From: Peronospora farinosa
Lineage: Eukaryota; Oomycota; Peronosporomycetes; Peronosporales; Peronosporaceae
DNA: 64,000 nucleotides
NCBI GenBank assembly: GCA_947646735.1
Contig: CANTFK010000981.1
Span: 62,001-126,000 of the forward strand
Reading direction: 5' to 3'
Shown: one piece after another, positions 1,900-64,000 of the stretch
Layout of the letters: every line of letters starts with the position of its first letter
Numbering within the stretch: the stretch's first letter is position 1
The notes under the pieces: model-generated
What the model was told of the DNA's origin: nothing
Databases searched by the model: none
The model's input: the letters and a program-made list of their open reading frames with translations, nothing else
Program-made: the position numbers and the translations under genes

Positions 1900-2238
1900 T
1901 GTAACGGGGCTAGAACGTACCGTCACTAGCTTACACGTGCGCTTAAAGGTAGACCCAAGCCCAAGTAACAAATATTAAGTAAATTTAAATCTTTTTTATT
2001 TTTGTTTTAATTCGTACTAATTACGAAGGTTTTAGTCGTAGTAAATACGACAGTGTTCCCGCCTTTCGGGAACCACACAATTTCAGGTTGATTTATCATT
2101 GGTCCACATTGGGTCTTTAGGCCCCAACAATAAACCAATAATAAATTATCACGCTGTGCCCGCTATTCGGGCCCAGCACCTACCTACATATGTAATTGTT
2201 TGTTTAAGTTAATTATGTGTGTAATGTAGCCCATTACA
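1900..2238 (-). repeat. LTR-A, 3' LTR of A1
   Basis: Plus-strand reading begins TGTAACGGGGCTAGAACG and ends AGCCCATTACA. It is homologous to the LTRs at 9247-9575, 28819-29151, 52174-52515, 55023-55353 and 62493-62823. The polypurine tract lies next to it at 2239-2250 (aaaagggggtga on the minus strand). Confidence 0.9.
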
Positions 2239-2317
2239 TCACCCCCTTTTCAAGACAGCACCTACCAACCGTGAGTGCTCATCTGTCGAAAACCCGTCGC
2301 TCACAAACGAACAAGCA

Positions 2318-3662: not shown

Positions 3663-5240
3663 CCAAGCCGTGAAGCGTAGCCGGCCGATGTTCCTTTAGC
3701 CGCCCGACATAGAACGTCGGGTGGGGTCGCGATGACGAGGGGACGTCGAGTGTATAAGAGTCGCCGATTTCCTTTAAAACCTTAAATGGACCGATGAAGA
3801 GTGGCGCGAGTTTTCTCGCGCCTAGGTTAGTACTTGCTATATCCCTTAGACCTTCTGTAGATAATAATACACGATCACCTTTCTTAAACTTGCTCATGTT
3901 CTTTCTTCCATGTTTGTCAGCGTTCTCCTTCTGTTGGTCTACAGCAGTTTGTAGTGCGTCGCGTACAAACCTGGTGATGGCTTGACGTTGAAGTATAAAC
4001 TCCGACACAGCCATGCGTTCAATCGGCGCGTAGTTGGCAGTAGGCGAACGCTTACCCGAAGACGGGTAAATTAATGTCTGCGTATACCATCGAGCTAAAG
4101 GGGACACCACGTCACGTGGCGTCGAAGGAGCAGTCTTTGCTTTCGATCGGGTTCCTACATTGGCGCTTCACATACCGTGAGCTGCACTCGATCCTTGTTT
4201 ATCTCCTTTGCCGCCGCAAAGTGGAGTCACTAGGTGTTGTGGGTCGCCCCACAGCTAGGAGAGTAGGAACACGAGGGTGACGAGCCGAATTTACAAAAAA
4301 TGGCGTCAACCCTGTTGACGCGTGTACGGCGTTGTTGAGTGCGAACTCAGCGAGTGGTAAAAATGCACTCCAACTTGTAAATGACGTAGCATAACTCCGA
4401 AGAAAATCTTCGAGGACCCGGTTTACGCGCTCGGTTTGCCCATCCGTTTCCGGATGGACCGCTGTCAACATCTGCAGTTTTGTCCCAAGGAGCTAGAACA
4501 GTGACGTCCAAAATGCGGACGTGAATCGCGGATCACGGTCCGAAACAATGTTTTATGGAAGGCCATGATTACGGAACACCGCGTCGATGAAGTGCGCCAC
4601 GTTCTCTGCCGCGGTGATCTTAGCGTGAACAGACACTAGATGTGTCATCTTGCTGAATCTGTCAACAAAACCCAAGATGCCCGTTCGAGCTTGACTATCG
4701 GGCGCAAGCCCGAAGATAAAGCCCATCGAAACTGATCGCCAGGCCTCGGCTGCAAGTGGCAACGATCGCAAGGGAGTCTGCGACGATGGATATGGCTTCA
4801 TACGCTGGCAGCATTCGCACGTTCGGATCCAGTTGCGTACCCACTTATACATGTGGGGTCAGAAGAAGTCTCGAGACACAGCCGCGAAAGTCTTTTCGCG
4901 GCCTAAATGACCGCTAGCAGAAGCATCGTGATACTCGTGAATGATTCTTGCACGCAAATTTATGTCGTTGGCGATCACCGTGCGAGGAGCATCGAATTGG
5001 TCGATGCTATACAGAAGCAAATCTCCGTCTAATTGTATCGATGAATATGATCGCGCTTGGTTCGGGATAATGCTCCCAGTGTAAAATCGCTGGGAGCACG
5101 CAGACAATTGATAATGTCTGCACAATCTGAATCGCTCTTGTACACTGCGACGATCTCATCAAATAGACACGGCTCGGGTGTAACCCGAGTTAAGTTCAGC
5201 GATACACACATCGCACATCGATCATCATTGTCTTCGTCAT
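3080..5240 (-). pseudogene. A1 integrase and chromodomain, decayed
   Basis: Minus-strand pol 3' half. The HHCC zinc domain is at about 4800-5000 (HEYHDASASGHLG, CECCQR). The DDE core follows, with HPETDGQTERVNRVLE near 4440. The GPF module is at 3700-3850 (APLFIGPFKVLKEIGDSYTL, TFYVGRLKEH) and the chromodomain at 3130-3270. Intact family members use this protein to splice cDNA into chromatin. It is broken by frame changes near 4500 and 4190 and by a TGA in the chromodomain (where A4 has TGG). The same site in A4 carries another stop a few codons later, so both chromodomains are disrupted independently. Confidence 0.82.
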
Positions 5241-9246: not shown

Positions 9247-9575
9247 TGTAACGGGGCTAGAACGTACCGTCACTAGCTTACACGCGCGCTCGAGGAAGAC
9301 TTAAGCCCAAGTATTAGGTATTAAGTAAATTTAACTCTGATTTTTATTTTTGTTTTAATTCGTACTAATTACGAAGATTTTAGTCGTAGTAAATACGACA
9401 GTGTTCCCGCCTTTCGGGAACCACACATTTTCACGTTGATGTATCATTGGTCCATTTTGGGACTTTAGGCCCCAATAATATATTGCCACGCTGTGCCCGC
9501 TATTCGGGCCCAGCACCTGCCTACATATGTAATTGTTTACAAATGATAATTATGTGTGTAATGTAGCCAATTGCA
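9247..9575 (-). repeat. LTR-A, 5' LTR of A1
   Basis: Begins TGTAACGGGGCTAG and ends AGCCAATTGCA (the usual end is CCCATTACA). The primer-binding site, read on the minus strand as cc then TGGTAGCACTTAG, occupies about 9232-9246. Confidence 0.9.
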
Positions 9576-10135
9576 TCGATGCTGAGTGCAAAGACGTCCG
9601 ATGATTAACGTGCCACCATTTAAGACCTTTATGGTGCGCGAGCTCGCCGAAGCGAATCGGCGAGTATTGAATCCCTCGCGCACTTCGCACCATGACGCTA
9701 TCAAGATGGAGACGTCAACGTTCTCCGGTGATGGTCCGGATCGTCTCCCTCTCAATCGCTGGTTTTGCGAGGTGGATATTGCAATAGCGTCAAGATTAAT
9801 TGACGCTTCGACGGCCAAGGTCAATTTCCTGCTGTCTCGGCTTACTGGCAAATCCAAGGAATGGGCTCTCTGAAAGCTTTTCTAAGATGAGTCTGCGTTC
9901 CCTACGCTGGACGATATCCAGCGTGACTTACGACAGGTTTTCGAGCCCAATCTCGCTTGCGTGCAGATTTCTTCTCACTCCGACAGGGCAAGCTGTCGAT
10001 GCGTGACTACGTGCAGAAGACACGTCATCTTGCTTCGTGCATTACCACGCAGCCAATTGACATGGCTTCACAAGTCCATGTCTTTATTTTTGGTATGCAA
10101 GAGGGCATGACGCGTCGCAGTATATTCCGTTACAC
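9576..10135 (+). pseudogene. B1 gag, 3' part
   Basis: Continuation of B1 gag after the A1 insertion. Matches to the A and B gag include [34 protein letters not shown], the segment [18 protein letters not shown], and FSLRQGKLSMRDYVQKTRHL. Frame breaks occur near 9600 and 9870-9960. The zinc-knuckle and protease region expected next is missing: after MQEGMTR the sequence jumps straight into the VEQGFP linker, so an internal deletion has removed the gag end and protease. Confidence 0.8.
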
Positions 10136-15903: not shown

Positions 15904-16840
15904 CTAGTCCGTTTCGTGCGAGATTCCATCGCGGAAGCGGTGGATAAGCAAAAACGAAACGCAGACAATAATGGAAGGGCAAATGCTCAAACATTTATTG
16001 AAGGCGATTTAGTTTTACTGTCAACAGTAAACCTACCTACACACGTAGTGACTAACGGGGGCAGCATTAAAATTGTTGCCCAAGTACATCGGCCCGTTTC
16101 GTGTATTGCGCCGCCTAGGCAACGCATACACGATCGAGTTGCCACGCAGGATGCGTACGCATCCTACGTTTTACGTGGGACGTCTTCGTCCGTACGTTCA
16201 GTACGCGGCTTCTTCGAACGACGAAGATAGCCATTACTCTCAAGAATCCCCTTCAGATTCTTGTTGTCACGAACCAGATTCGATACCTGGTCGTGTAGAG
16301 ATGAGATCGTCCCATGATACTGGACGATCTCCTGACGAGCTGTCGCCAGCTCGTTACTTAGAGAATGAAGCCGCCGTTCATTCTCCAATAGTGCGACAGC
16401 ATTGTTTGCCCGAGAATTCTCGTACTCAAGCCCAATATGTAGCATATTGTCCTTTAAGCGGTGACACTTATACCGCTCGTGAATAACATCACAACGTAGC
16501 TCACGAGTTACACGGGCAAACCCGTCTAACTCAGCAGACAAGTCTGATGGAAGAATCGGAAAGGGTTTTCCCTCCACCACCGCATCCGCTGGTGGACTCT
16601 CATGGTGGGAAACGCTTTCTCGTGGAACGCTTGCTAAGTCACCGCGAGGTGAAGGGACGTCGGATGAGTTATCTCGTCCGGTGGCGTGGCTATCCACCTT
16701 CGGCGGATAGCTGGGAACCTCGGGCCCAACTGATGGCCGACGTTCCCGGCCTTGTCGAACAGTACGACAAGGGGCACCCGATGGTGAAGGACCATCGGAA
16801 AACGAGCGCCCAGCGCGCTCGGAGAGGGATTGCATAGTAG
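15904..16840 (+). pseudogene. C integrase GPF module, linker and chromodomain
   Basis: Begins with RDSIAEAVDKQKRNADNNGR and LVLLSTVNLPT. After a frame change near 16060 comes the GPF module YIGPFRVLRRLGNAYTIELP and TFYVGRLRPY. A low-complexity Ser/Pro/His linker with a stop at about 16486 follows. The chromodomain is at 16610-16790 (RFLVERLLSHREVKGRRMSY, VRWRGYPPSADSWEPR, ADVPGLVEQYD), keeping the aromatic residues that would form a methyl-lysine cage. The reverse strand of the linker carries a coiled-coil frame, described separately. Chromodomains of this clade steer integration toward heterochromatin. Confidence 0.82.
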
Positions 16841-17681
16841 CAACACCTTCGGGCATCTCAAAGAGATGCGAGCTTTCCGCCAGGGCTCAGTAAGGAGGTA
16901 CGCCTCCTTAGGCGCTCTTGACGAGGTGCTCAGGCACCCCAGGCATGGGTCGCCCCAAGAGAGGCATAACAGGCCTGCCTCTCTAGATAACCGGTGCAAA
17001 CGATAGCATGCACCGGACGTACTTCGTTTCTCAAACATTCTTGCGGCTAGCAAAAAGTCGTTGAAACCAAGCCTCTTTTTCAACGTTTAAAACGTTGGTG
17101 CTGAACATGTTCCAAGATTGGAGGAACGCGTCGGCCTCACGCCGACACCACGAGCATTAGTGTCAACAGAAGTACCGACACTATGAGAATTGATGTCAGT
17201 AGAAGCACTGACATCACCCTTACGGTCCCCACCCGAGTCACTATCCTTCGACTCGTTTGGCGAGTCGTCTGATTCATCAGACGACCCGAACATTTCACGG
17301 TACATTGATTCACTCAATGTACCACGATCCCTCTTCGTAGCATTAGACGACGAGGTATCACCCGGGGGAGAGCCCGGGAGTGACACGTGGCTTTGAGGCG
17401 GATGCGTCATCCGACTCACCAAAGTAGTCAACGACTAACTCTGGGTCAACATCTTCGCGTGGCGAAGCGCTACGTGAACCTGCAACAGGCGTTGCAGGCT
17501 GATGTTGACTTCCAGCAGACACATTAGTGTCTGCTGGCTGAGGCTGTGAAGCCTCAGTAGCGGCTTCACAGAGGCGTGCAGCCGAGCTCTTGGCTGCCTT
17601 AGCAGCGACGCGCATTGACTTTGTCATAGCGTAATTGTTGAATGAAAGAAAATTCAACAAGTTCTCCTTTCCCATAGTCAC
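16164..17681 (-). other. Antisense frames of C, coiled-coil protein opposite the linker
   Basis: The minus strand holds a frame from 17681 (43 bases inside the 3' LTR) to 17358 that is rich in Ala/Ser/Pro, an overlapping frame 17431-17087 with an acidic Ser/Asp tract (SSDESDDSPNESKDSDS), and a 230-codon frame 16856-16164. The last has a long charged region of clear heptad character (the segments ALLENERRLHSLSNELATAR and SSLHDQVSNLVRDNKNLK) and a basic end (RRSKKPRTER). Position, strand and coiled coil match the antisense ORFs of families A and B, but no sequence homology to their N-terminal domain was found. At least two frame changes would be needed to join the parts. It could be a diverged homologue, an analogue or a shadow; the heptads argue against a shadow. 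Confidence 0.5.
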
Positions 17682-29265: not shown

Positions 29266-32103
29266 AGTATCTACCAAGATCATTTGGCCATCTACGTCGC
29301 CGTGGGCCTCTACCCACGGCTAAAGTGATTATTTAGAAGAATGGAGAAGACCTTCGATTATGTATCGATTACCGTAGGGTGAACTAGTTAACCATTTAAT
29401 AGTATATCTTATGCCGTGATCAGTGAATTGCTGCATGACATGGATAAGACGACGTGGTAATGTTCCCTAGATATGGTGAGAGGATTTTGTGTGGTTGAAT
29501 GACGGAACGGGCAAAAGAAATTTCTGCATTTTTTACACCGTCTGGATTATATGAGTATTTACGTATGACTATTGGTTTAAAGAATGCTCTTTAGATATAC
29601 CAACGATTGATTGACAATGCTCTGTATGGACTTCTATAGATCGGTACCAGCTCTGATCCCATCACTATTGATTCGTCAAAGATGAATGACGTGTTTACCG
29701 ACGGTGAACCGAATACGAATTCCAGACCTTCAGTGCTAGGTCGGCGCTCATATATTGACGATATATTGATACCCGCCATATCGTGGACCTTCTTGTAAGA
29801 GAAGGTGGAGCGATTGTTGGAGGCGTGCGATAAGTGGAATTTGTCGATTAGTGTGACCAAGAGTTTCTGGGGACGTCGAAAAGTAGATTATTGGGTCATC
29901 AGGTTTCGTTTGCATGATTGGAAGCTCACCCAAGAATTTGGATCGCTTGTGAATATACCGTTCCTATAAACGCTACGATCGATGCAATCATTTTTGGGGA
30001 GTCTGAATTATTACAGTCGGTTCATTGAAGACTTTGCAATTTATGCATCTACGCTCTATGAGTTACGGGAGGCTGATTTCCATGAAATCCGCCGCGCTAG
30101 TGACATTCAGACGTCTATAACCGATGCCGGACCAGAGTGCGATCGCAATTCCTCCAGAGGTAGCTACAAAATTGATGTCTACGGAGATGGATACAAAATC
30201 GATCAGGAACTCATTACGGGGGAAGGAATCGACGCGAGTAGGCTATGATTGCATTCACTCCGTTAAAGGCTAAAATAGCTGCAACACCAATCCTGAAGCA
30301 TTTTGATCCGGATCGATCACCCGTAATTGTGGTGTACACCAGCAAGTGTGCAATATCGGCCACGTTACTGCAAGAACATGATGGAGTGTTTTGGCCGGTC
30401 CCTTTCACTATTCGGACGTAAAAGACTAATGACGTTATCAAGGGACTGTTGAAAAAGAGGTCTTAGCCCTCCTTCAGATTCTGGAATATGTTACACTATG
30501 TTGGTCTTGCGTGCGATTGTAGTTTTCATGAGATATATTTCACTTTGGCTTGGTTGTTGCAGTCTTCTGGTCTCAACGGGAGACTAGGCAGATGAGTTGC
30601 ATTAATTTCGAATTGGACATTGGACATCCGCCGAAGTGAGAAGTGAAAAGATAATATATTGGGTACACTGGCCGCGAGTATAACTCTTCGTAAGTAATGT
30701 TAATCGCGATCGCTCCACGGAATCAACCCAGGCAAACAATGAGTAAGCCACCTACCACGATGGAAATAGGAGAAAGCCTCCTGGTGGCCAGTTTCGATGG
30801 GCCGGCTAGGGTAAGAGGAAGGGCGGAGCATACTGCGCGTTAATATTGAAATTACTTAAATAAAGAATCGTAGCTGTCGCCTCTGATTTACGACTAATTT
30901 AACGGTGAACGAAGCAGAATGTCGAGGAATACTCCTCAGTTTCGATTTGCTAGACAATCAGACCAGGGAACGCGTAATTATCTGCGGAGATTCAAGTTTG
31001 GTGATTAGGCAAATGCGTGGCGAGATCGACTGCAAAGAACCCGATTTACAATAACTGCGTCGTCAAGCTATGTAAACACTCCGATCGTGTCCAAATCACT
31101 ATTTCCTTCATATGAAGCGAGAATGGAATCAGAGTGCTCGTCGGCTAGCAAGCAAAGCTCTACAGCAAGAGAAAGATACACTTGTCGTTTACGATCAATA
31201 TTGCCAAGATCTGATCACACTCAATCGATTGGATAAGTTGTTGCTTTCTAGTCGAGTTAATCGAGTACTCAAAGTAGCTGCGATGACTCGATCAGCCGTA
31301 AGAAGACGCTATCAACCAGAAGTTTTACAGGAGTAGATCGTGCAGCAAGTGCGGGGCAAGCACAGGATGAAGAGAATTGGATATCTAACCTGAAGACATA
31401 TCTGATCGGGGACGTCGCCAGGCTAACAGAGGTAGAAGCGAAGGCCTGCACGATGATCGCACCCGATTACGAAGTGGATCAAAGTGGATCATTATTTTTC
31501 TGCCTGGATCGGTTGCGAGATCCGAAGGTCGTGCAGAATTAGCTCGTTTGGCGATACCAGAGCTATTGTAGCTAGACTTCTTCCATCATTACCATACGAG
31601 TCTGGAGGGTGGTCATCAAGGAACCGGTCGGAAATTCCAACGAATCAGTATGAATTTTCATTGGCATAGATCGTACCGGAGTGTGCAATGCTATGTAGGT
31701 GAATGTGTGTATTGTGAAACGGGCAAAGGGACACCATCTGATCACGTAGTATCACCAGGAAAAATGAAGGCAACCTATCCTTTTCAAATTTTAGCTATGG
31801 ATCATATCCTGTCGTTGCCGCGATCATTCAAAGGAAACACCGAGCTATTATTATGGATAAATTTGTTCTCTGGTTTTGTGATCGCGAAGGCTAGTTCTTC
31901 TAGAACTGTACAAATCATGCAGAGAATTACGAAGAATGTGTATTCCGACGATTTGGTGCAAGTGAAGCAATCCTCCATGATCGAGAGCCAGGATTTATGT
32001 CTGATTTCTTCCGAGCTTGTAATAAGATCGCAGGATAGAAACGGAGGGCTACTATGGCTTACAGGCCGCAAGCAAATGACACAGCCGAGCGAAAGGCTCA
32101 AGT
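29266..32103 (+). pseudogene. E2 gypsy pol (RT, RNase H, integrase), heavily decayed
   Basis: Old plus-strand pol. RT motifs are KNGEDLRLCIDYRRV near 29340, MTIGLKNAL near 29570 and the catalytic YIDD at 29751-29762. Then come SFLGSLNYYSRFIEDFAIYA near 29980, RNase H pieces near 30960-31180 (CGDSSLVIRQMRGEIDCKEP, HMKREWNQSARRLASKAL), and the integrase zinc domain near 31560-31720 (HHYH-type histidines, CVYCETGK). The integrase core has LAMDHILSLPRSFKGNTELL and ends AYRPQANDTAERKAQ at 32103. Stops and frame changes are frequent. It breaks off exactly where E1 (1407 and below) begins in the family alignment, both times against a B LTR. Confidence 0.85.
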
Positions 32104-32420
32104 TGTAACGGTCTAAGGACCCGTTAAAGTCTTACAGTAAAAGGGCGTTGAGGAAGAGCTCTTAATTAACTCGTAAATATAACTTTGTTTTATTTTTGTT
32201 TTGTTTTAATTCGCAGTAAGTGCGAATATGTTCCTTAACTCATGTGAACCACTCAAATGGAAGTCAATTTATTATTGGCGAATTAGTGGGTCTGGCACCC
32301 CAATAATAAACCAATAACAAAATGACGCGCAGTATCCGCTAATTGGATACTACCCTATGCCTACTTATGTAATTATGTAGTATCCCTATAACTACTCATG
32401 TAACAGGTTGCCTCATTACA
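32104..32420 (-). repeat. LTR-B, 3' LTR of B2
   Basis: 317 bp, plus-strand reading TGTAACGGTCTAAGGACCCG to GCCTCATTACA. The polypurine tract is on the minus strand at 32421-32434 (aaagaaaggggtga). Confidence 0.88.
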
Positions 32421-32532: not shown

Positions 32533-33882
32533 ATGGATCCTAGGCTTCCACGAAACAATGTCTCTTACAACCTGAACTGGAAACACCAAGCGACAATCCG
32601 AAGAGAGCAGGCGCCGCAGATCATGGATGGAGACTTGAAACCGTGGCGCTTGTATGGTCTTGAAGGTGCTGTCGAACCCGAGCCATTGGAGGTCATGAAG
32701 GACCTGTACACGCGATATCGCACAGTGAGAGGCAAAGCGACGAACAACGCATATACCGACGATGCGTTGCAGAGATCTTGGTGTGAATCTATCAGGCGCT
32801 GGAACGCGAGCCGACGTGAAGGACTTTCCTTCACGTACTGGTTAGATGGTCGCGAGGGAACGCGTGATAGGTACACTATTGGCAAATTGCGCCGACGCAT
32901 GTGTCGCATGACTTGTGACGAGTATCACCTTTGTTACGTCCATATTCGTGAGGGATGTTCAACGTGCAACATGGGCAGATCGTGCCTGGTCTGGCAGGAA
33001 TGGGACGACTTGGTGTGTGCGCGAGGCATGCCCGATCATATTCGTCCATGGATTGCCCGTTATGATAGAATCCTTTCGGATCTCCAGGTGTCCGATCTAC
33101 GGCGAGTGAGAGCGCGTCCTTACGATCGCCGAGGGCTTTCACGTAGCCGAGGTGGTCAACCGTATCATCCGTATTCTCCTGAGCCTCGTAATAGGTCTCG
33201 GTCTCGGAGTCGCTCGGGAGGTCCTCGTGGTTTCGTTGCTCGCGAGCATTACGGCTCACGAGATCGGGGATGGAACCGGCAGCGTCGGTCGCGGTCACCG
33301 TCTTTCTACGGGACTCATAGTCCTCGACCAAGTCCGGGACATCTTGGGACAGCGTACTCGATGGCTCCCATGTATCGTCCGCCGGCGAGTATCCCATTTG
33401 GCGACCCCTGAAATGCTTCTCGACATAGTTCTTCATGGGCGCCGAGTCATTACACGACGCCTGGGGCTTGTGATTCTCGTGAACGACAATACGGTCGACA
33501 ATCCAGCGTCGCGCACCCGATGCATTAATCAAGGGAGGAGGAGCATCACGACGGAAGATCTCTGGCGATTAGCACCGAGTCGCAAAATCGGACTTTTGTA
33601 CAGTCGAACGACGAGATACGTCTACTTCGCGCTGAATCCGAGGAGTCGAAGAAATCCCTACTTGATGCTCGCGAGATGGATGAGAGAGCTCAAGATCGTG
33701 CGGATGCTGCGAATGAGGCTTCTGAGCGGACTCGACGTGAGCAGCTGGTACTGGTTGAGCGCCTACGTCAGCTTGAGACGACTGCGTTCGGAGGACCCCA
33801 GCAGGTCGAGTCTGCACGCGTTCGGTCTGTACTCTGTCCCAGACGTTGTCAGCGTCGTCGTCAAGTGATGTCGGATTTCTAG
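32533..33882 (+). CDS. Antisense ORF of B2: cysteine motif, RS tract, coiled coil
   Basis: Plus-strand frame opposite the B2 pol end, starting 113 bases inside the 3' LTR. The first 292 codons are open (32533-33411). They contain a domain clearly homologous to the A antisense ORF (LKPWRLYGLEG, DDALQRSWCESIRRWN, SFTYWLDGREGTRDR), then CYVHIREGCSTC with further cysteines (CX2C, then C about six on). An Arg/Ser tract follows (PEPRNRSRSRSRSGGPRG). After stops at 33409-33411 and 33526-33528 the same frame continues as a strongly heptad coiled coil (the segments RAQDRADAANEASERTRREQ and LVLVERLRQLETTAF, up to 33882). The first ATG is taken as the start. Inferred role: a nucleic-acid-binding or regulatory accessory protein, possibly expressed from the 3' LTR; function unknown. 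Confidence 0.68.
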
Positions 33883-35060
33883 CCGGCACAGAAGAGCAGG
33901 GAAGATTCGAAGGGAGATCCGCCGGCAGGTAAGCCTTGAGGCGCCCGACATAGAACGTCGGGTGCAAGCGCATAGATGTAGGTATATCTATCGTGTAAGC
34001 GTCAACATGCACCTTACCAACCCGAAATGGGCCAATATATCTTGGCGCTAACTTATTAGCGCCCAAATTCGTCACTGAGGTGTTCGGTAATCCACTTGTT
34101 GATAATAAAACTCTGCCACCTTCTCGAAATATCAACATATTCTTTCGACCTCTTCTCCTTTTGGTTGTCGACTGACTCTTGTAATGCACCACGCACAAAG
34201 CGCGTGATTCCTTGTCGTAATAGTAGAAATTAGGTTACTGCAGCCGAACTTACAGGCGACGTATTCTCTTTTCGGGCAAAATTAGCTACGGAGACGCGAT
34301 GGAATGCGTCGCGTCAGGAGTCGATATGCCGTTGGCCACAAAATTATCCGCACTGGTTGCATCGGCAGCAACCTTTACTTCTTCGTAATCAATAATCAAT
34401 AGTTTTGGCGCAATTCCATCGGTAGATACTCCCCCACCAAGCTTTGAGACAGGGTGCTCCGAAGCTGAGAGAGCAAGCAGCGCCGGATGGCGAGGATGCC
34501 TCGCGTTGTTCACGAAAAAAGAGTCAATTCGGTTGACGCATGGACTGCATTGTAGATTGTAGAATCTGCAAGTGAAAGAAAGGAACTCCATGACGAAATA
34601 AATGTTGCATTACTGCGCAAGACATATTCGAGCACTCTGTTCACGCGCTCCGTTTGTTCATCCGTCTCTGGATGGACCGCCGTAGACATAAGAAACCGAG
34701 TGCCTAACATATGCAATAAGTCGGTCCAGAAAGCCGAAGTGAAACGCGGGTCAAGGTCCAAAACAATAGGCTCTGGAAAGCCGTGATGCCTAAAGATAAG
34801 ATCAATAAAGATCTTCGCTGTCGTCTCTGCCATAATGTGGGCGGAGACCGGAGCAAAATGCACCATTTTGCTAAATCGATTCACTAAGACCAATACGCCC
34901 GTGCGTTTCTGTTCATCCGGCGGAAGTCCACAGATAAATTTATGCTGACCGAGCACCAGGCTTCCGTGGCAATCAGAAGCGAGCGCAATGGGGCTTTTGA
35001 AGACGGCGCGGGATTTACACGCTGGCAGGTTTTACAGGAACGCACCCATTTCTGGATGTA
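33420..35060 (-). pseudogene. B2 integrase, GPF module, linker and chromodomain
   Basis: The integrase core is at 34510-34956 on the minus strand: VLVNRFSKMVHFAPVSAHIM, LDLDPRFTSAFWTDLLHMLG, HPETDEQTERVNRVLEYVLR (D in LDPRF and E retained). The GPF module is at 33900-34100 (YIGPFRVGKVHVDAYTIDIP, TFYVGRLKAY). A Gln/Pro/His-rich linker follows, then a chromodomain region near 33300-33530 (RWIVDRIVVHENHKPQ, DDTWEPSSTLSQDVPDLVED). Frame changes lie near 34520 and 34200. The linker is exactly opposite the antisense coiled coil. Confidence 0.8.
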
Positions 35061-36092: not shown

Positions 36093-36118
36093 TGAAAAGA
36101 ATACGAAGTGCTACTAGG

Positions 36119-36435
36119 TGTAACGGGGATGGACACGTAACCGTCTTACACTAAAAGGTCGTTGAGGAAGCGCTCTAAGATTACTCGTAAAACAACTTTG
36201 TTTTTATTTTTGTTTTGTTATGATTTGCAGAAAATGCATATATGTATTCTAGCTCATGGAAACTACTCAATATGAAGTCAATTTATTATTTACTAATTGT
36301 TTAGTCTGGCACCCCAATAATAAAACTAATAATAAAATGACGCGCAGTATCCTTTAATCGGATACTGTCCTATGCATACTTATGTTATTATGTGTTATTC
36401 CTATAACTAATTTAGTAATTAGTTGCCCCATTTCA
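36119..36435 (-). repeat. LTR-B, 5' LTR of B2
   Basis: 317 bp, plus-strand reading TGTAACGGGGATGGACACG to GTTGCCCCATTTCA. The primer site on the minus strand is at about 36105-36118 (TAGTAGCAC, one change from TGGTAGCAC). Confidence 0.88.
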
Positions 36436-52515: not shown

Positions 52516-52532
52516 CCTGGTAGCACTTTGTA
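52516..52532 (+). other. Primer-binding site of A3
   Basis: cc spacer then TGGTAGCACTTTGTA. Confidence 0.65.
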
Positions 52533-52541
52533 GTCCTTCCT

Positions 52542-53591: not shown

Positions 53592-53610
53592 GTGCAGGGC
53601 GCCCTACTGG
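53570..53610 (+). promoter_or_regulatory. Programmed -1 frameshift signal, gag to protease
   Basis: Slippery heptamer A_AAA_AAC at 53570-53576 in the gag frame, 8-base spacer, then a perfect stem (arms CCAGTAGG 53585-53592 and CCTACTGG 53603-53610, 10-base loop). The gag stop TAG at 53589-53591 lies in the stem. The -1 frame is open from 53576 into the protease. Confidence 0.72.
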
Positions 53611-55022
53611 TTGGAACGGAGGTCCGGGTCCCCCGGTGGCAGCCCAACCTTCCAGTCCTCCTGCGCTACGCGCACGGTTAAATGCCACCACTACGAGTGG
53701 TGATTCACGTCTGATTATTGTCAGTTTACATGTCGCCGGCGTCCGGCGACCTCTGCGAGCACTCCTGGACTCAGGAGCAACAAACAATTTCTTTCGTGAA
53801 TCTTGTTTGTCGATGCTGCCTCCCAGCATTCAGGTCCGTGAGGGACCTGGCCAAGTCGTCGTCAAGTTGGCTGACGGGAAACCACACCGCGTATCGCGGC
53901 GCGAAGTGTCGTTGCCGTATACGTTTGATGGCTTTCGCAGTAATGATGATTTCTTGGTGATCGCGATGAATTATGCATTCGATTGCATACTGGGCATGCC
54001 ATGGTTGGCACGTTATAAGCCCCAGATCGACTGGTTAGCCAGATCAGTGAGACGTCGACGCAAGTTCGATGTCAGTGAAGTGTTTACCCATCTCTTGGTA
54101 TCTCCAAGTGACTGGCCAAACGTCACAGTCGTGGATCGCGATTCCACGACGTTGGCGGTGCACAGAGCGAGCGATGGCCCTCTCTGCACTGCTTGTGCTG
54201 TTCTTCGGGACACAAGTGACAGTGACTCCTCGCTACAGAGCGAAGAGGACGACGAGGACGACGCGGTCGAACAGGGGTTCCCGCGCGTCATTAATGCGGT
54301 TGAACAGGGGTTCCCGCACGTGAATGCAGTGGTTGAACCGGGGTTCCCATCTGCACCTATTGTGGTCGAGCAGGGGCTCCCACAAGGGCATTGTGGCGAC
54401 GAGCAAGAGCTCGCCAGCGAGTGTGACGTGGACGGACAGGAGTCCTCACGCGAGAGCATGATGGTCGAACCGGGGTTCCCATCATCACCCACTGTGGTCG
54501 AACCGAGGTTCCCACATGGGCATACTGTGGTTGAGCAGGGGCTCCCACGCGGGTTTACGGCGGCCGAGCAGGAGCTCCCGCATCAAGTGTCGACGGTCGA
54601 GTTTGGGGTACTCCCGTCCAGTGTTTCCGGCATCTTGGATGACGACATCCAGTGCCTAGAGGGGGGTGATGGTTTATCACCTGACTGCGGTTCGCCAGCT
54701 TCGAGTAGTGACTCGAAGCACGATGGGGACAACAGCACCGAGAATTTAGCGTTGGAATGTGTCCACGCTATCGTGTACGTGGAAGGGAGTCCACAAAGGC
54801 GCCAATATATCGAGGTCGAGAGTCCTCCTCGTAATGCGTCTTCCATTACAAGTCTTCCAGGGCTTTCCTGGAAGCATTTCCTACGTGACCTTAAGGGAGG
54901 CACTGTGGAACAAGTGTGTCTAATCACCAACGAGGTGGTTACCGTGGCAAACGAGGAGCATATGGCGCGTCCTCAAAGCGCTGAGCCGAAGTCTGCGCGT
55001 GAAGAAAGGTTTGCATCACAGT
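53576..55022 (+). CDS. A3 Pol, 5' part: protease and VEQGFP linker (split by A4)
   Basis: -1 frame from the slippery site. Aspartic protease with [17 protein letters not shown] (active site DSGA) near 53745-53795 and [19 protein letters not shown] near 53977-54034. Then a linker with tandem imperfect repeats (VEQGFP, VEPGFP, VEQGLP cores) at 54261-54590 and an acidic/Ser segment ([17 protein letters not shown]). It leads into REERFASQ, where A4 is inserted at 55022/55023. Across the insertion the frame continues without loss at 62828 (SQ, then [15 protein letters not shown]). The function of the linker is unknown. It has 44 codons fewer than A4 in the repeat region. The protease would mature Gag and Pol. 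Confidence 0.9.
55018..55022 (+). other. Target-site duplication of A4 (left)
   Basis: acagt, repeated at 62824-62828. Confidence 0.95.
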
Positions 55023-55353
55023 TGTAACGGGGCTAGAACGTACCGTCACTGCGCTTGAGGAAGACTCAAGCCCGAGTATTAGGTATTAAGTAAATTTAAC
55101 TCTGATTTTTATTTTGGTTTTAATTCGTACTAATTACGAAGATTTTAGTCGTAATAAATACGACAGTGTTCCCGCCTTTCGGGAACCACACAATTTCAGG
55201 TTGATTTATCATTGGTCCATATTGGGGACTTTAGGCCCAATAATAAACCAATAATAAATTACCACGCTGTGCCCGCTATTCGGGCCCAGCACCTGCCTAC
55301 ATATGTAATTGTTTATTTGTGTTAATGCTATATGTGTAATGTAGCCCATTACA
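55023..55353 (-). repeat. LTR-A, 3' LTR of A4
   Basis: 331 bp, identical to 62493-62823. Confidence 0.95.
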
Positions 55354-55431: not shown

Positions 55432-56810
55432 ATGTCCGGAGACCCAGAACCCAATCCAGCAGGACGCCCAAGATACATCAGCGGGAATGCATCAACCAGC
55501 ATCATGGCGCGGCAGCTCATACCTTGGTCGCTGTACGACTTGTCCGGAGCTCACGCTCCGGACTCACTGGACATGATGCGGGAATACTTCCGCCGATTTC
55601 GAAAACTGCGCGGAAAAGGTCTTGATGGAATCGAGCATGAAGCTCTACAACGTTCTTGGTGCGCCTTCATCCAACGTTGGAATCGGATGCTCGAGGATGG
55701 TAGCAGCTTCCAGTTATGGCTCGCCAATCGAGAGGAACTTCGCGCCGATCACTCCATCGGGCGCTACGCGAAAGAGTGTGTGAGGAAGCTTGGAATGAGG
55801 ACCGTCTCTGCTTCGTCCATGTCAATGAAGGATGCCAATCTTGTGACTCGACTCCACGCCCAACTCATGACGAATGGCGACGACACATCGCTGAGTGTCC
55901 ACTCAGCGATCGCGAACGAAGTTGGATTGCAAAGTATGAGCGAAGTCTGAGCGAACGGGGAAGCGCAATTATTCGTGGTGCGCCTCGATTGCAGCACCAC
56001 TCGCGACAGCGGAGTCAATCTCCGCTAAATTGATAGCGCAGGGAAGCGACACGTTCGCTTGTCCGTCCTGCTTCGCGATTCTTGCCTCGCAATCGTGATA
56101 TGTATTCACCGCGACGTTCTCGTTCACGGCGTCGTTCTCGTTCGCGACACCGTTCTCGTTCTGGTCATCGTTCCCGTTTCCGACAACGTGAATCTCCTTA
56201 CCGCTCTCGTTTGTCACGAGAGCGTTCGCGTGCTCGCCCGCCTTGGAATAGTCCGACTTCGTGGCTTCATACGACAGAACCACATCTGGAACGTCACGAA
56301 GGAGCGAGGAACGTGGTTCCCATGTATCCTACTCGGGAGGGAATCCAAGCCAACGTACTCGGTACCTACGCACGGATGGAACCGCACGCTTCTCATGAGC
56401 CGACTGCAGTAATGGTTGTGGAGGGTCCTCGTGACCCACAATGCGGTCTACAATCCAGCGCACCTGTCCCTCCGCATCAACAAGCGGAGGAGGGCCCTCG
56501 CGGTGGTAGAGCTGGCGTCCTGGTTGCTCAGGACGATGTTGATCAGGCCGTGAATATAGCTGCCGATGCTCGGCTGGAGGCTGAGGCTGCCAGTGAACGT
56601 GCTGCCCAGGCGGAGAAGACTTCGAGTGAGACCCGGCAGTCGAACCGTGAACTGCTCGAGCGGATAAGGATTCTGGAGCGCCAGATGCTTGGTCAGGTTC
56701 AGACGGGATCGAGACCCCGCCCCATGTCATCGGCGCGTCGAGCGCGACGGGAAGGCCGTTCGACTTACGAACCCCTGAAGCCGGTGTCGGAACCAAACCG
56801 TGAAGGGTAG
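55432..56810 (+). CDS. Antisense ORF of A4: conserved domain, cysteine motif, RS tract, coiled coil
   Basis: Plus-strand gene opposite the 3' end of A4 pol, starting 79 bases inside the LTR. Domain 1 (55500-55760): LIPWSLYDLSGAHAPDSLDM, EALQRSWCAFIQRWN and the segment SSFQLWLANREELRADHSIG, homologous to the B2 antisense ORF. A one-base loss at about 55757 (cgggcgc; A1 has cggcgcgc) shifts the frame. It then continues with LCFVHVNEGCQSC (cysteines at 55833 and 55842), DEWRRHIAECPLSDRERSW and a stop pair tga-tag at 56031-56036, also present in A1 but absent from B2. The final 243 codons (56082-56810) begin PRNRDMYSPRRSRSRRRSRS, followed by further Arg/Ser repeats. A coiled coil is at 56530-56710 (DDVDQAVNIAADARLEAEAA, NRELLERIRILERQML) and a basic end (SSARRARREGRS). 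Function unknown; an RNA-binding or chromatin-linked accessory protein is a guess. The stop pair might be spanned by splicing. Confidence 0.68.
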
Positions 56811-57090
56811 CCGGACGATATTCCTTCAGCCGCCCGACATAGAATGTCGGGTGGAGTCGCAGTGAAGAGGGGACGTCGAGTGTATAAGCGTCGCCAATTG
56901 CCTTCAGAACCTTGAATGGACCGATGAAGCGTGGCGCGAGTTTACTCGCGCCCAGATTAGTGACCGCAGAATCCCTTAAACCTTCCGTCGATAATAATAC
57001 ACGGTCACCTTTCTCAAACTTGCTCATGTTCTTTCTTCCATGTTTGTCAGCGTTCTCCTTCTGTTGGTCTACAGCAGTTTGTAGTGAGTG
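56190..57090 (-). pseudogene. A4 integrase GPF module, linker and chromodomain
   Basis: Minus strand: DQQKENADKHGRKNMSKFEK, RVLLSTEGL, the GPF module APRFIGPFKVLKAIGDAYTL with TFYVGRLKEYRPA (about 56815-56950), a Gln/Pro/His-rich linker, then a chromodomain starting RWIVDRIVGHEDPPQ and reaching RYRVRWLGFPPE, where TAG interrupts it at about 56329. After the stop the domain would continue DTWEPRSSLLRDVPDVV. It is separated from the integrase core by the 4-bp insertion (tgtagtgagtgcg; A1 has tgtagtgcg). Confidence 0.85.
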
Positions 57091-59032
57091 CGTCGCGTAC
57101 AAACCTGGTGATGGCTTGACGTTGGAGTATAAATTCCGACACGGCCATGTCATCAATTGGTCGCGCCGACTCAATCGGCGCGTAGTTGGCAGTAGGGGAA
57201 CGTTTACCCGAAGACGGGTCAATCAATGTCTGCGCAGTCCATCGAGCTAATGGGGACGCCACGTCTGATGGCGTCAAAATGGCCGTCTTTGCCTTGGATC
57301 GTGTTACTGCATTCGCGCTCAAAATACCGTGAGCTGCACTCGATCCTTGTTTATCACCTTTATCCCCCCCCAGAGTGGAGCCACTAGGTGTTGTGGGTCG
57401 CCCCACGGCCAGGACAGTAGGAACACGAGGGTGACGAGCCGAATTTACAAAAAATGGCGTCAACCCTGTTGACGCGTGTACGGCGTTGTTGAGTGCGAAC
57501 TCAGCGAGTGGTAAAAATGCACTCCAACTTGTAAATGACGTAGCATAACTCCGAAGAACATCTTCGAGGACTCGGTTCACGCGCTCGGTCTGCCCATCCG
57601 TTTCCGGATGGGATGCCGTCGACATCAGCAGTTTTGTCCCGAGGAGCTCGAAAAGTGATGTCCAAAATGCGGACGTAAATCGCGGATCACGGTCCGAAAC
57701 AATGTTTTCTGGAAGGCCATGATGACGGAACACCGCGTCGATGAAGTGCGCCGCGGTCTCTGCCGCGGTGACCTTAGCGTGAACAGGCACGAGATGTGTC
57801 ATCTTGCTGAATCTGTCAACAAAGACCAAGATGCCCGTTCGAGCTTGGCTATCGGGCGCAAGCCCGAAGATAAAGTCCATCGAAACTGATCTCCAGGCCT
57901 CTGCTGCAATTGGCAACGATCGCAAGGGAGCCTGTGACGATGGAGATGGCTTCACACGCTGGCATATTTCGCACGTTCGGATCCAGTTGCGTACCCACTT
58001 ATACATGTGGGGCCAGAAGAAGTCTCGAGACACAGCCGCGAAAGTCTTTTTGCGGCCTAAATGGCCGCCAGCAGGAGCATCGTGATACTCGTGAATGATT
58101 CTTGCACGCAAATCCATGTCATTGGCAATCACCGTGCGAGGAGAATCGAATTGGTCGATGCTATGCAGAAGCAAATCGCCATCTAAACTGTATCGATGAA
58201 TATGGTCGCGCTTGGTACGGGATAATGCTCCCAGTGCAGCATCGCTGGGAGCACGCAGATACTCGATAATGTCTGCATAATCTGAGTCACCCTTGTACGC
58301 TGCGACGATCTCATCAAATAAACACGGCTCGGGTGTAACCCGAGTTAAGTTCAGCGATACACACATTGCACATCGGTCATCATCGTCCTCGTCATCAGTA
58401 GCCTGGCGACTCAGAGCAGTCCGAGGATCGTAGTCGGGACGTCGTGACAAGGCGTCAGCGAAAATATTGGTCTTGCCTGGCTTGTAATGCACGACGAAGT
58501 TGTACTCAGAGAAGAATGAGAGCCATCGTGCCATCCGTTGGGACAGGTGTGGGCTCTTCATCGCTGTGCGCAGCGATGCATGATCGGTGTACAAAGCAAA
58601 CGTACTTTCACCAAGGAGATGCACGCGAAACTTGATGAGTGCATAGCGCATCGCTAATAACTCCTTGTCGTGAACCGGATAGTTCTTCTCAGCTGGCTTC
58701 ATCTGTCGCGACTGATAACTCACGACTCGTTCACGGCCCTCATCATCAAATTGCATGAGGGCACAACCGATTGCAAAATCACTGGCGTCGCAAACCACGT
58801 GGAACGGCTTGGAATCGTCTGGTAGGACCAGGACTGGCGCTGACGCTAGGCTCTTCTTTACTGCTTCGAAGGCTGCTTGGTGCTCGGGACGCCACAACCA
58901 CGTGGCGTCTTTCTTCAAGAGTGACGACAAAGGCTGGATAGAAACAGCATAATCCTTTGTATACTTGTGCAAATAATTAGCCAAGCCGAGCCACTGGCGC
59001 AACTCCGTAGGGTTCTTGGGCGTGGGCCAAGA
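57047..59032 (-). pseudogene. A4 RNase H and integrase core
   Basis: Same frame as the RT segment but after the TAA at 59033-59035. RNase H: FHVVCDASDFAIGCALMQFD, HDKELLAMRYALIKFRVHLL, YTDHASLRTAM. Integrase zinc domain: IIHEYHDAPAGGHLG and CEICQRVKPS. Core: D in SVSMDFIFGLAPD, D in VSDRDPRFTSAFW, E in HPETDGQTERVNRVLED. The frame ends at 57047 after the 4-bp insertion. All catalytic residues are present, so only the stop and the frame change separate this from a working polyprotein. Confidence 0.9.
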
Positions 59033-61432
59033 TTAGATGGACGACACCTTCTCTGGATCAGCTCGAACTCCCGATTTACTCACATAGCAACCTAACACCG
59101 GAATCTCCGGTGCACAAAAGACACACTTCTTGAGATTCGCGTACAACTTGTTGTCCCGCATAACTTGAAACACTTGCTTCAGGTGTTGAAGGTGAACTTG
59201 GACATCGTTGAGGTTGCCCTCGGCGCGACTATGGACGAAGATATCGTCAAAATAACTTGGGGCAAAGTTCCGAAGAGGTCTCAACACTTGAGACACCATG
59301 CGATTGAAAGTGGCCGGAGCGTTCTTCAACCCTTGTGGCATTACCAGCCACTCCCATAACATGCCACTCGGGGTGCTCACCGCGGTGAGTGGGATATCGC
59401 TCGGGCGCATCAAAATCTGGTAAAAGCCATCGGTCAAGTCGATGGCACTGAAGATGACACTACCTGACATGGAATTCAGCACCATGTCCTTCCTGGGAAT
59501 TGGCGTTTGCGCAGGAATAGTGGCATCATTCAACTTATTGAACGCATGCACTATCCGCCAGCCTCCCGTAGCCTTCTTCACGCAGAAGGTTGGACTCGAA
59601 TGTGGTGAGATACTCTCCCGCACATGACCCGCTTTGCGGCGGCCTTCAAAGAATGCGTCAATAGCTTCGACTTGATCTCGAGGCAACGGCCACTGCCGTG
59701 TCACACAATACTTCGACCCTGGCACGAGATCAATCTCGTGCCGAACACCGCGGTCCGCAGGAAGTTCAGCCGGGATCTTGTCCGGGAACACGTCTGCATA
59801 CTCACGAGCAATGTCGTAGACGGGGTTACCAGACTCTCGCAGGGCCTCCCATGACTGTGATGCAAACCTTTCTTCACGCGCAGACTTCGGCTCAGCGCTT
59901 TGAGGACGCGCCATATGCTCCTCGTTTGCCACGGTAACCACCTCGTTGGTGATTAGACACACTTGTTCCACAGTGCCTCCCTTAAGGTCACGTAGGAAAT
60001 GCTTCCAGGAAAGCCCTGGAAGACTTGTAATGGAAGACGCATTACGAGGAGGACTCTCGACCTCGATATATTGGCGCCTTTGTGGACTCCCTTCCACGTA
60101 CACGATAGCGTGGACACATTCCAACGCTATATTCTCGGTGCTGTTGTCCCCATCGTGCTTCGAGTCACTACTCGAAGCTGGCGAACCGCAGTCAGGTGAT
60201 AAACCATCACCCCCCTCTAGGCACTGGATGTCGTCATCCAAGATGCCGGAAACACTGGACGGGAGTACCCCAAACTCGACCGTCGACACTTGATGCGGGA
60301 GCTCCTGCTCGGCCGCCGTAAGCCCGCGTGGGAGCCCCTGCTCAACCACAGTACGCCCATGTGGGAACCTCGGTTCGACCACAGTGGGTGATGATGGGAA
60401 CCCCGGTTCGACCATCATGCTCTCGCGTGGGGACTCCTGTCCGTCCACGTTGTACTCGTGTGGGAGCCCCTGCTCGACCACAATATGCCCATGTGGGAAC
60501 CTCGGTTCGACCACAGTGGGTGATGATGGGAACCCCGGTTCGACCATCATGCTCTCGCGTGAGGACTCCTGTCCGTCCACGTCACACTCGCTGGCGAGCT
60601 CTTGCTCGTCGCCACAATGCCCTTGTGGGAGCCCCTGCTCGACCACAATAGGTGCAGATGGGAACCCCGGTTCAACCACTGCATTCACGTGCGGGAACCC
60701 CTGTTCAACCGCATTAATGACGCGCGGGAACCCCTGTTCGACCGCGTCGTCCTCGTCGTCCTCTTCGCTCTGTAGCGAGGAGTCACTGTCACTGGTGTCC
60801 CGAAGAACAGCACAAGCAGTGCAGAGAGGGCCATCGCTCGCTCTGTGCACCGCCAACGTCGTGGAATCGCGATCCACGACTGTGACGTTTGGCCAGTCAC
60901 TTGGAGATACCAAGAGATGGGTAAACACTTCACTGACATCGAACTTGCGTCGACGTCTCACTGATCTGGCTAACCAGTCGATCTGGGGCTTATAACGTGC
61001 CAACCATGGCATGCCCAGTATGCAATCGAATGCATAATTCATCGCGATCACCAAGAAATCATCATTACTGCGAAAGCCATCAAACGTATACGGCAACGAC
61101 ACTTCGCGCCGCGATACGCGGTGTGGTTTCCCGTCAGCCAACTTGACGACGACTTGGCCAGGTCCCTCACGGACCTGAATGCTGGGAGGCAGCATCGACA
61201 AACAAGATTCACGAAAGAAATTGTTTGTTGCTCCTGAGTCCAGGAGTGCTCGCAGAGGTCGCCGGACGCCGGCGACATGTAAACCGACAATAATCAGACG
61301 TGAATCACCACTCGTAGTGGTGGCATTTAACCGTGCGCGTAGCGCAGGAGGACTGGAAGGTTGGGCTGCCACCGGGGGACCCGGACCTCCGTTCCAACCA
61401 GTAGGGCGCCCTGCACCTACTGGTCCCGACCG
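59033..61432 (-). CDS. A4 Pol: protease, expanded VEQGFP linker and RT, ending at a premature TAA
   Basis: About 800 codons in the -1 frame from the slippery site at 61432-61438. Protease with [11 protein letters not shown] near 61225-61260. The linker at 60290-60760 carries one extra 132-bp block (44 codons including [18 protein letters not shown]) compared with A3 and A1. RT follows: [54 protein letters not shown] and the catalytic YFDD at 59243-59254. It stops at TAA 59033-59035, just before the RNase H connection. RT and protease could still be made; RNase H and integrase could not. Confidence 0.92.
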
Positions 61433-61438
61433 TTTTTT
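61398..61438 (-). promoter_or_regulatory. Programmed -1 frameshift signal of A4
   Basis: Minus-strand A_AAA_AAC at 61438-61432 followed by the same stem-loop as in A3 (61398-61423). Confidence 0.72.
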
Positions 61439-62466
61439 GGACGTGCGGCCGGTACAGCACCCTCATGATGGGCGTCCACTACTTGCACCGATAATGGGGC
61501 TGGCGCACGGCACTCTGCCGCGCGATGTCCTGGCTTGAGACAACGAAAGCAAACCATTGGACGCCCGGTGCGAGCGTCACCTTTATGATGAAAGACACGT
61601 CGCCGGTCACCCGACGACTCAATAACGTCGATCTCCATAGGTTCTGGGCCAGAAGGCCGGGGAACGCTGACGACCGAGGGTTTGGCATAGGCCTTTGTGA
61701 CCCTAAAGTCTTCACGGAGTGCGATGGCGAATGCCTCCTCCAATGTGGCAGGCTCGGCGCGCTCCAGCGATAAGCGGGTCTGCCCCTCACGCATACCATC
61801 CACAAAGACATTCACCTGTGTGTACATGTCCATGGGGTGCGTGATAATACATGACGCCAGATGCCTAGCCATCTGTACGTAGTCGCGCATCGCCATTTTA
61901 CCCTGTCGCATCGACAGGAATCTTGATCGCACCAGTTTCTCCTCTTGTGGTGGCTCGAAGGCAAGACGGAGATCGTCCTGGATGGTATCCAAGGTGGGAA
62001 ATGCGTGCTCGTCCACAACGAGTTTACCAAGGGCCCACTCCTTGGCCTTCCCGGTGAGGCGGGAAAGAAGAAAGTTGACCTTCGCCTGGGGAGCCTCAAG
62101 AAGTCTCGAGGCGATGGCGATATCAACTTCTCGGAACCACCGGTTCAGCGATAACCGGTCCTTACCTTCTCCAGAGTAGGAGGAGGTTTCCATCTTCACG
62201 GCCTCATTACGTGAAGGGCGCGAGGGAGTTAAGCCTCGCCGGTTGGATTCGGCGAGCTCGCGTGCCATAAACTCATGTATGGCGAGACGTTGCGCGTCAG
62301 GGGTCGCTGATCTCATCAGCGACGCGACGAATGCCTCTCCCGATATCGCCGCGAGGCGATTAAGGGCATCCCACTCAACACCAGTAAGATGGGGGAAGGT
62401 CGCGTGCTCCAGAAATAAATCTGGAGCGTCAAAGTACGACGATTCGCTCATCCCAAACTCGGGCAT
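61417..62466 (-). CDS. A4 Gag
   Basis: 349 codons, intact, ATG at 62466, 26 bases from the LTR. Same domain order as A3 Gag, to which it appears identical by eye: leader [20 protein letters not shown], capsid domain, zinc knuckle [14 protein letters not shown], slippery run near the end. Because Pol of A4 is broken while Gag is intact and the LTRs are identical, A4 may have been mobilised with enzymes from another copy, or the Pol lesions arose after insertion. Read with the protease frame, it would supply the virus-like particle shell. Confidence 0.93.
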
Positions 62467-62477
62467 AGGAAGGACTA

Positions 62478-62492
62478 CAAAGTGCTACCAGG
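62478..62492 (-). other. Primer-binding site of A4
   Basis: Minus-strand cc then TGGTAGCACTTTG. Confidence 0.65.
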
Positions 62493-62823
62493 TGTAACGG
62501 GGCTAGAACGTACCGTCACTGCGCTTGAGGAAGACTCAAGCCCGAGTATTAGGTATTAAGTAAATTTAACTCTGATTTTTATTTTGGTTTTAATTCGTAC
62601 TAATTACGAAGATTTTAGTCGTAATAAATACGACAGTGTTCCCGCCTTTCGGGAACCACACAATTTCAGGTTGATTTATCATTGGTCCATATTGGGGACT
62701 TTAGGCCCAATAATAAACCAATAATAAATTACCACGCTGTGCCCGCTATTCGGGCCCAGCACCTGCCTACATATGTAATTGTTTATTTGTGTTAATGCTA
62801 TATGTGTAATGTAGCCCATTACA
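62493..62823 (-). repeat. LTR-A, 5' LTR of A4
   Basis: 331 bp, identical to 55023-55353. Right-hand duplication acagt at 62824-62828. Confidence 0.95.
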
Positions 62824-62827
62824 ACAG

Positions 62828-64000
62828 TCATGGGAGGCCCTGCGAGAGTCTGGTAACCCCGTCTACGACATTGCTCGTGAGTATGCAGACGTGTTCCCGG
62901 ACAAGATCCCGGCTGAACTTCCTGCGGACCGCGGTGTTCGGCACGAGATTGATCTCGTGCCAGGGTCGAAGTATTGTGTGACACGGCAGTGGCCATTGCC
63001 TCGAGATCAAGTCGAAGCTATTGACGCATTCTTTGAAGGCCGCCGCAAAGCGGGTCATGTGCGGGAGAGTATCTCACCACATTCGAGTCCAACCTTCTGC
63101 GTGAAGAAGGCTACGGGAGGCTGGCGGATAGTGCATGCGTTCAATAAGTTGAATGATGCCACTATTCCTGCGCAAACGCCAATTCCCAGGAAGGACATGG
63201 TGCTGAATTCCATGTCAGGTAGTGTCATCTTCAGTGCCATCGACTTGACCGATGGCTTTTACCAGATTTTGATGCGCCCGAGCGATATCCCACTCACCGC
63301 GGTGAGCACCCCGAGTGGCATGTTATGGGAGTGGCTGGTAATGCCACAAGGGTTGAAGAACGCTCCGGCCACTTTCAATCGCATGGTGTCTCAAGTGTTG
63401 AGACCTCTTCGGAACTTTGCCCCAAGTTATTTTGACGATATCTTCGTCCATAGTCGCGCCGAGGGCAACCTCAACGATGTCCAAGTTCACCTTCAACACC
63501 TGAAGCAAGTGTTTCAAGTTATGCGGGACAACAAGTTGTACGCGAATCTCAAGAAGTGTGTCTTTTGTGCACCGGAGATTCCGGTGTTAGGTTGCTATGT
63601 GAGTAAATCGGGAGTTCGAGCTGATCCAGAGAAGGTGTCGTCCATCTATTCTTGGCCCACGCCCAAGAACCCTACGGAGTTGCGCCAGTGGCTCGGCTTG
63701 GCTAATTATTTGCACAAGTATACAAAGGATTATGCTGTTTCTATCCAGCCTTTGTCGTCACTCTTGAAGAAAGACGCCACGTGGTTGTGGCGTCCCGAGC
63801 ACCAAGCAGCCTTCGAAGCAGTAAAGAAGAGCCTAGCGTCAGCGCCAGTCCTGGTCCTACCAGACGATTCCAAGCCGTTCCACGTGGTTTGCGACGCCAG
63901 TGATTTTGCAATCGGTTGTGCCCTCATGCAATTTGATGATGAGGGCCGTGAACGAGTCGTGAGTTATCAGTCGCGACAGATGAAGCCAGCTGAGAAGAAC
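62828..64000 (+). CDS. A3 Pol, continuation: RT and RNase H, open at window end
   Basis: Resumes the frame interrupted at 55022. [62 protein letters not shown], catalytic YFDD at 63428-63439, then YSWPTPKNPTELRQWLGLAN at 63649 onward (TAT where A4 has TAA). RNase H begins near 63875 (FHVVCDASDFAIGCALMQFD) and runs out of the window at AEKN. No stop was seen in 390 codons. Together with the 5' part this pol would be intact but for the A4 insertion. Confidence 0.92.

Follow-up and report, generated by a model that had tools for sequence, protein, structure and literature searches.

The window analyzed here, a stretch of 64,000 nt from Peronospora farinosa (GCA_947646735.1, contig CANTFK010000981.1, labelled C261, positions 62,001–126,000), contains Ty3/gypsy long terminal repeat (LTR) retrotransposons in which a protein gene runs antisense to gag-pol on the 3′ LTR side. 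An earlier note on this DNA had claimed that the strand opposite pol encodes the same protein plan in two elements of family A (A4 and A1) and one of family B (B2). We searched the window by tblastn with the antisense protein from an intact copy, and matches at all three loci bear this out, every copy being damaged. In A4, the ATG and the start of a helical domain lie at 55432..55758 (+; 100% to residues 1–109 of an intact A copy), and the remainder, with a cysteine cluster, an arginine/serine-rich (RS) tract, a coiled coil, a basic tail and the stop, lies at 55761..56810 (+; tblastn 55761–56804, 97%) in another frame than the first part. This stretch of A4 is not a single open frame: the frame changes near 55758, and two in-frame stops follow at 56031–56036. 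The B2 gene (32533..33936, +) keeps one frame, matches an intact B copy at 85% over 468 residues, and is open for 292 codons from the ATG, with stops beyond. The A1 gene (2318..3674, +) is decayed, with tblastn pieces of 59 to 85% in three frames and several stops. The sequence motifs that the note had listed are readable in all three copies, with damage in A1, where a Trp of the first motif is changed to Cys and stops fall within the second motif and within the Cys motif. The ATG is separated from the inner edge of the 3′ LTR by 79 nt in A4, 78 nt in A1 and 113 nt in B2.

Intact copies are found elsewhere in the same genome (46.85 Mb, 274 contigs), which holds at least 147 and at least 168 matches to the antisense gene, pieces being counted apart. 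We fetched 30 A and 30 B loci, which are the best matches and a non-random sample; the gene is open from ATG to stop in 12 of the 30 A and 8 of the 30 B copies, mostly with 459 (A) or 468 (B) codons. Beginning just inside the 3′ LTR, it faces the tail of pol, the chromodomain and the linker that precedes it. In families A and B and in a third family, C, described below, its end lies no more than 20 bases from FYVGRL, a sense motif of the SH3-like domain. The codon phase of the antisense relative to the sense frame is identical in all three. In most copies, a sense open reading frame (ORF) faces 836 of 1377 nt in A (61%) and 1058 of 1404 nt in B (75%), an overlap made up of the linker, the chromodomain and the tail behind it. 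That the gene overlaps a chromodomain, as the note had held, is confirmed by the position of PF00385 inside this overlap; the domain is detected at the C-terminus of pol with E 2.4e-7 in an A copy and 6.3e-12 in a B copy, identifying the carriers as chromodomain Ty3/gypsy elements. In A4, the chromodomain is placed at 56266..56454 (−) by transfer from the intact relative L052, and Pfam gave no separate detection in A4's own broken pol piece. The A4 antisense gene adjoins the SH3-like domain of the integrase C-terminus (56815..57009, −; PF24626, position likewise transferred from L052).

We evaluated whether such open frames could arise by chance. With the sense protein held fixed and its synonymous codons redrawn (20,000 draws per family), the fraction of draws that left the overlap open in the antisense frame was 0.045% for A and 0.075% for B, and the antisense-only part, which faces no sense ORF, stayed open in 0.21% (A) and 1.2% (B) of Markov sequences. 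Across intact copies (11 of A and 6 of B), the other five frames average at least 6.6 stops each. The antisense frame is open beyond what chance would give.

The two families have diverged well apart, and the note had proposed that antisense residues are nevertheless retained, which the comparison of one intact copy per family upholds. The two antisense proteins share 170 of 418 aligned residues. In the antisense-only part, 76 of 173 residues are identical, and the proportions of nonsynonymous (pN 0.403) and synonymous (pS 0.809) change give a ratio of 0.50 (0.41 to 0.60); in a six-frame control of this part, the antisense frame keeps 44% of its residues and the other five 19 to 33%. In the tail block, 40 of 84 antisense residues are identical versus 26 of 106 sense residues. 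The block of chromodomain and linker has 54 of 161 identical residues and a ratio of 0.88 in the antisense frame, and 64 of 158 and 0.57 in the sense frame, the two strands being about equally conserved there. In their sense tails the two families are barely alike, and the antisense residues opposite them do match. A's NEND-rich sense tail mirrors the RS tract (antisense 1436–1760 in copy L033; for B, antisense 1850–2290 in copy L002).

Selection within family B was analyzed in 39 copies, broken copies and duplicates included, using variants common to at least five copies; the variant numbers are small (16, 21, 12, 22 and 32 for the antisense-only part, tail, chromodomain, linker and sense-only control, respectively). 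The ratio of nonsynonymous to synonymous change (N/S) in the antisense frame was 0.20 in the antisense-only part (p 0.002), 0.47 in the tail (p 0.049) and 0.30 in the linker (p 0.001), and opposite the chromodomain it was 1.24, which is not significant (p 0.71 for the antisense, 0.11 for the sense frame). The corresponding sense values were 2.54 in the tail, 0.44 in the chromodomain and 4.69 in the linker, and the sense-only control gave 0.16 (p < 0.001). Singletons were approximately neutral on both strands (antisense 0.99 to 1.30). When both states were required in at least four copies, three reference rows gave antisense values of 0.21 to 0.42 outside the chromodomain and no clear sense constraint within it (0.73 to 0.95). 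For the 53 copies of family A, antisense N/S was 0.53 to 0.65 in the antisense-only part (p 0.02 to 0.04). The sense frame that is wobble-aligned with the antisense frame also appears conserved in these tests, as expected from the geometry of the frames, but it is rich in stops. The per-strand comparison that the note had called for thus gives a clear signal between A and B and inside family B, and a weak one inside family A.

Relatives occur in other oomycetes. The B protein finds 17 at E 0.001, and two profiles find at least 31 and at least 33 at E 0.01 (8000 candidates scored each); those with a species name are listed as unnamed or hypothetical, and many are fragmentary. They come from Phytophthora (fragariae, rubi, idaei, capsici, nicotianae and megakarya) and from downy mildews (Peronospora destructor, effusa, farinosa and matthiolae, and Hyaloperonospora arabidopsidis). 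Residues 61–499 of the Phytophthora capsici protein match A copies at up to 48%. In a tree of 20 rows, Phytophthora fragariae and Phytophthora rubi group with the Peronospora B type (100/99), and a weakly supported group (78/88, with long branches flagged) unites Phytophthora capsici, nicotianae and megakarya, without a firm place next to the A type. Gene models of Phytophthora fragariae (P0010, P0011 and P0013) and Phytophthora nicotianae (P0025) continue in the antisense +1 frame of the chromodomain end, and therefore the overlap with the chromodomain of pol seems to be present in these two species as well. No relative was found among plasmid records (searched with DNA in near mode), phage records (searched with protein) or IMG/VR contigs (searched with two single proteins).

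The third family is represented in the window by a plus-strand element at 14371–16837, opposite whose pol linker and chromodomain an antisense ORF with a coiled coil and a basic tail is found (16164..16886, −). In related copies, the antisense frame is open from stop to stop for 610 and 633 codons, and another is listed with 657. The full protein has 86 matches in its own genome and contains a region resembling the domain with conserved Trp and Cys (LQSWNAFI ... LC...C..C), as well as the coil and the basic tail. BLASTP gave no match between C and A/B. In hhalign, the comparison had a P of 0.0015 for the whole protein and 0.012 for the domain only (probability 17 and 4%), and none of 150 shuffles scored higher, the best being close (24.97 versus 25.45); a remote homology to the A/B protein is suggested. 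Two pairs of C copies with few changes gave no significant antisense N/S value (antisense-only part, 0.67 and 0.83; overlap, 1.5 and 1.6).

The protein is composed of a helical domain with the Cys cluster, an RS tract, a coiled coil and a basic tail. The CX2C motif of the earlier note is present, as one part of a cluster of four cysteines (C117, C127, C135 and C138 in the A protein) which are conserved in 90% of rows or more and which we infer to form a zinc site; His 130 within the cluster is Ser in Phytophthora capsici. Its Arg/Ser tract and coiled coil were also correctly recognized: the tract is seen in A, B and Phytophthora proteins, and the coil in the AlphaFold2 model. This model (24 rows) predicts a helical domain at 31–181 (predicted local distance difference test score, pLDDT, of 62–88 in ten-residue blocks), disorder at 183–362, a coiled coil at 361–423 (87–96 for residues 371–420) and a short helix at 434–440 within the basic tail, with a mean pLDDT of 58.5 for the whole protein. 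Modelled alone (20 rows), the helical domain has a mean pLDDT of 77.7 and a predicted template modeling score of 0.48. Searches of Pfam and of PDB sequences returned look-alikes of the coil and RS tract and rows below threshold, with no convincing N-terminal domain, so that the profile check suggested by the note yields relatives and no convincing Pfam assignment of this domain.

A4 is a minus-strand gypsy element with gag, protease, reverse transcriptase, RNase H, integrase and the SH3-like domain, as judged by Pfam. Its LTRs at 55023..55353 (3′) and 62493..62823 (5′) are 99.4% identical (2 mismatches in 338 aligned bases) and are flanked by the 5-base target site duplication ACAGT (55018..55022 and 62824..62828); the element is nested in a near-identical plus-strand copy of its own family (52168–55022 and 62824–64000). 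On the minus strand, gag lies at 61417..62484 (Retrotrans_gag, Ty3_capsid), protease and reverse transcriptase at 59033..61462, and RNase H and integrase at 57047..59032 (57225–59029 scanned). The minus-strand LTRs of B2 (3′, 32101..32420; 5′, 36116..36435) are 79.5% identical, and those of A1 (3′, 1900..2240; 5′, 9247..9577) 87%. Two further features were observed in the window: (i) a 33-base tandem repeat at 60264–60758, in the linker behind the protease, whose copy number differs between A4 and the surrounding copy, and (ii) an ORF of 284 residues at 20414–21268 (−) with no Pfam match and, by eye, a likeness to the repeats of secreted oomycete effectors.

Antisense ORFs between pol and the 3′ LTR (aORF-3R) are described for plants and fungi (PMC7264820), as in Grande (gene23), RIRE2, Retand, PvRetro13 and Boty, in agreement with the plant cases mentioned in the note; the Grande product is nuclear, and that of PvRetro13 has an SMC domain. 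The oomycete gene resembles these in being antisense to gag-pol on the 3′ LTR side and present in many copies and several species. It differs in that it does not lie between pol and the LTR but mostly overlaps pol, at the chromodomain and linkers (61% in A, 75% in B), and is therefore a variant of aORF-3R. It is also unlike the Retand TRP28 proteins, since a Pfam scan of 24 members at E 0.1 gave no PF04195. The antisense genes HBZ of human T-cell leukemia virus type 1 (HTLV-1) and APH-2 of HTLV-2 lie on the 3′ LTR side and encode a coiled coil and a basic stretch, and a promoter in the 3′ LTR drives hbz in the direction opposite to gag-pol. The oomycete gene shares this position, the coiled coil and the basic stretch, and differs from HBZ in that the same Pfam scan finds no bZIP. 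Both viral genes are named in PMC11963269. With SR proteins the oomycete protein has the RS tract in common, and it differs from them in showing no RRM in that scan. Chronos elements are oomycete Ty3/gypsy elements with a captured chromodomain, like the present ones, and an archaeal-type RNase H (PMC5348765, whose main text lacks the word "antisense"); Pfam scans of the A4 pol pieces list gypsy-type RNase H only, no search having been aimed at the archaeal type. Among the titles and opening abstract lines listed in literature searches, none concerns an antisense gene of an oomycete element, and as far as our searches of literature and databases reach, the chromodomain overlap, the oomycete host group and the protein domain are new.

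As judged from sequence, the antisense protein gene in oomycete chromodomain gypsy elements is real, and the protein it encodes is conserved from one element family to another and among species. We propose that the protein is a nuclear accessory regulator of element RNA or chromatin, and hold the chances of this explanation as a whole to be evenly balanced. The RS tract, basic tail and coil, together with the nuclear plant product (PMC7264820), point to a nuclear regulator. By analogy with hbz, a promoter situated in or beside the 3′ LTR would drive the antisense transcript against gag-pol; the protein would enter the nucleus and pair through its coiled coil; the Cys-cluster domain, RS tract and basic tail may bind nucleic acid; and the element's own RNA could be regulated at splicing, retention or export, or through silencing of the sense LTR.

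Several observations weigh against this proposal. First, A4 is young by its LTRs, yet its antisense gene is broken, and the same pair of in-frame stops occurs in A4 (56031–56036), in A1 (within 2835–3674) and in copy L032, all on contig C261. Among the 39 of 53 A copies readable at this site, the pair is absent from 37 and present in 2, A1 standing outside those 39. Because the stops are common to these copies, the broken form has apparently been copied, or locally gene-converted; an intact gene is therefore not required in cis in every copy, which fits a trans-acting protein and equally a dispensable one. Second, recent selection on the antisense frame inside family A appears weak or not resolved: the linker gave 0.60 to 0.78, significant at one threshold (0.60, p 0.04), the tail 0.9 to 1.1 with a sense value of 0.59 to 0.70, and the overlap as a whole favours the sense frame (0.68 to 0.74). 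Among the first 30 near-identical A copies, the antisense-only part gave 1.28 for variants in at least three copies and 0.82 for those in at least two. Third, fold searches with the whole protein and with the domain alone found nothing significant (Foldseek, E 0.001), which does not imply a new fold, and the Pfam scan of 24 members found neither RRM nor bZIP. The nuclear site and the RNA role are guesses.

A real antisense protein might alternatively be a structural helper that acts with Gag or integrase in particle assembly, RNA packaging or integration, which we consider unlikely. For a retroviral capsid-like fold of the helical domain, Foldseek lists weak rows, none of them at E 0.001, and the matches counted for a structural role lack significance. 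A capsid match is found in gag itself, as is a CCHC knuckle that scores under the Pfam cut-off, and a separate antisense mRNA would better suit a regulator. It is far less probable that the antisense RNA matters rather than the protein, pairing with genomic RNA to cause small-RNA silencing with the ORF as a by-product: such RNAs are discussed for LTR elements in section 8 of PMC7264820, but neither conservative codon changes nor 44% identity confined to a single frame would follow from such a role. Equally improbable, and concerning origin rather than function, is the capture of a host gene, such as one for an SR-type protein, that the element now carries in antisense; the RS tract and a weak PDB sequence match to SRSF1 (E 4.2) speak for it, and the absence of an RRM from the Pfam scan and the listing of only unnamed or hypothetical Peronosporaceae proteins, many fragmentary, among the species-named relatives in the search lists speak against it. 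That the antisense frame is a mere shadow of the pol C-terminus and low-complexity linkers is hardly credible, for despite the large overlap (836/1377 nt in A, 1058/1404 in B) and the favoured sense frame there in A, no sense ORF lies opposite the best conserved part, the tail and linker of B vary freely in the sense frame and not in the antisense frame, and in the A versus B tail 26/106 sense residues match against 40/84 antisense.

Combining the proposed nuclear regulator with the distribution of the gene, we tentatively suggest, as a joint reading that is possible and still somewhat doubtful, that the gene predates the split of Phytophthora and downy mildews, occurs in families A, B and probably C, and encodes a trans-capable, HBZ/Rev-like nuclear regulator tuning the sense RNA. 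The two strands would then divide the work, the sense strand keeping the SH3-like domain and chromodomain, and the antisense strand, where it faces low-complexity pol linkers, keeping the helical Cys domain, RS tract and coil. Here a structured pol domain is overlain by antisense protein-coding sequence in many copies within a single genome, and selection on each strand can therefore be measured stretch by stretch. The protein family is entered in the searched databases as unnamed or hypothetical proteins only. With its carriers one can test why LTR elements retain antisense genes at their 3′ ends, a question left open by the plant literature cited.
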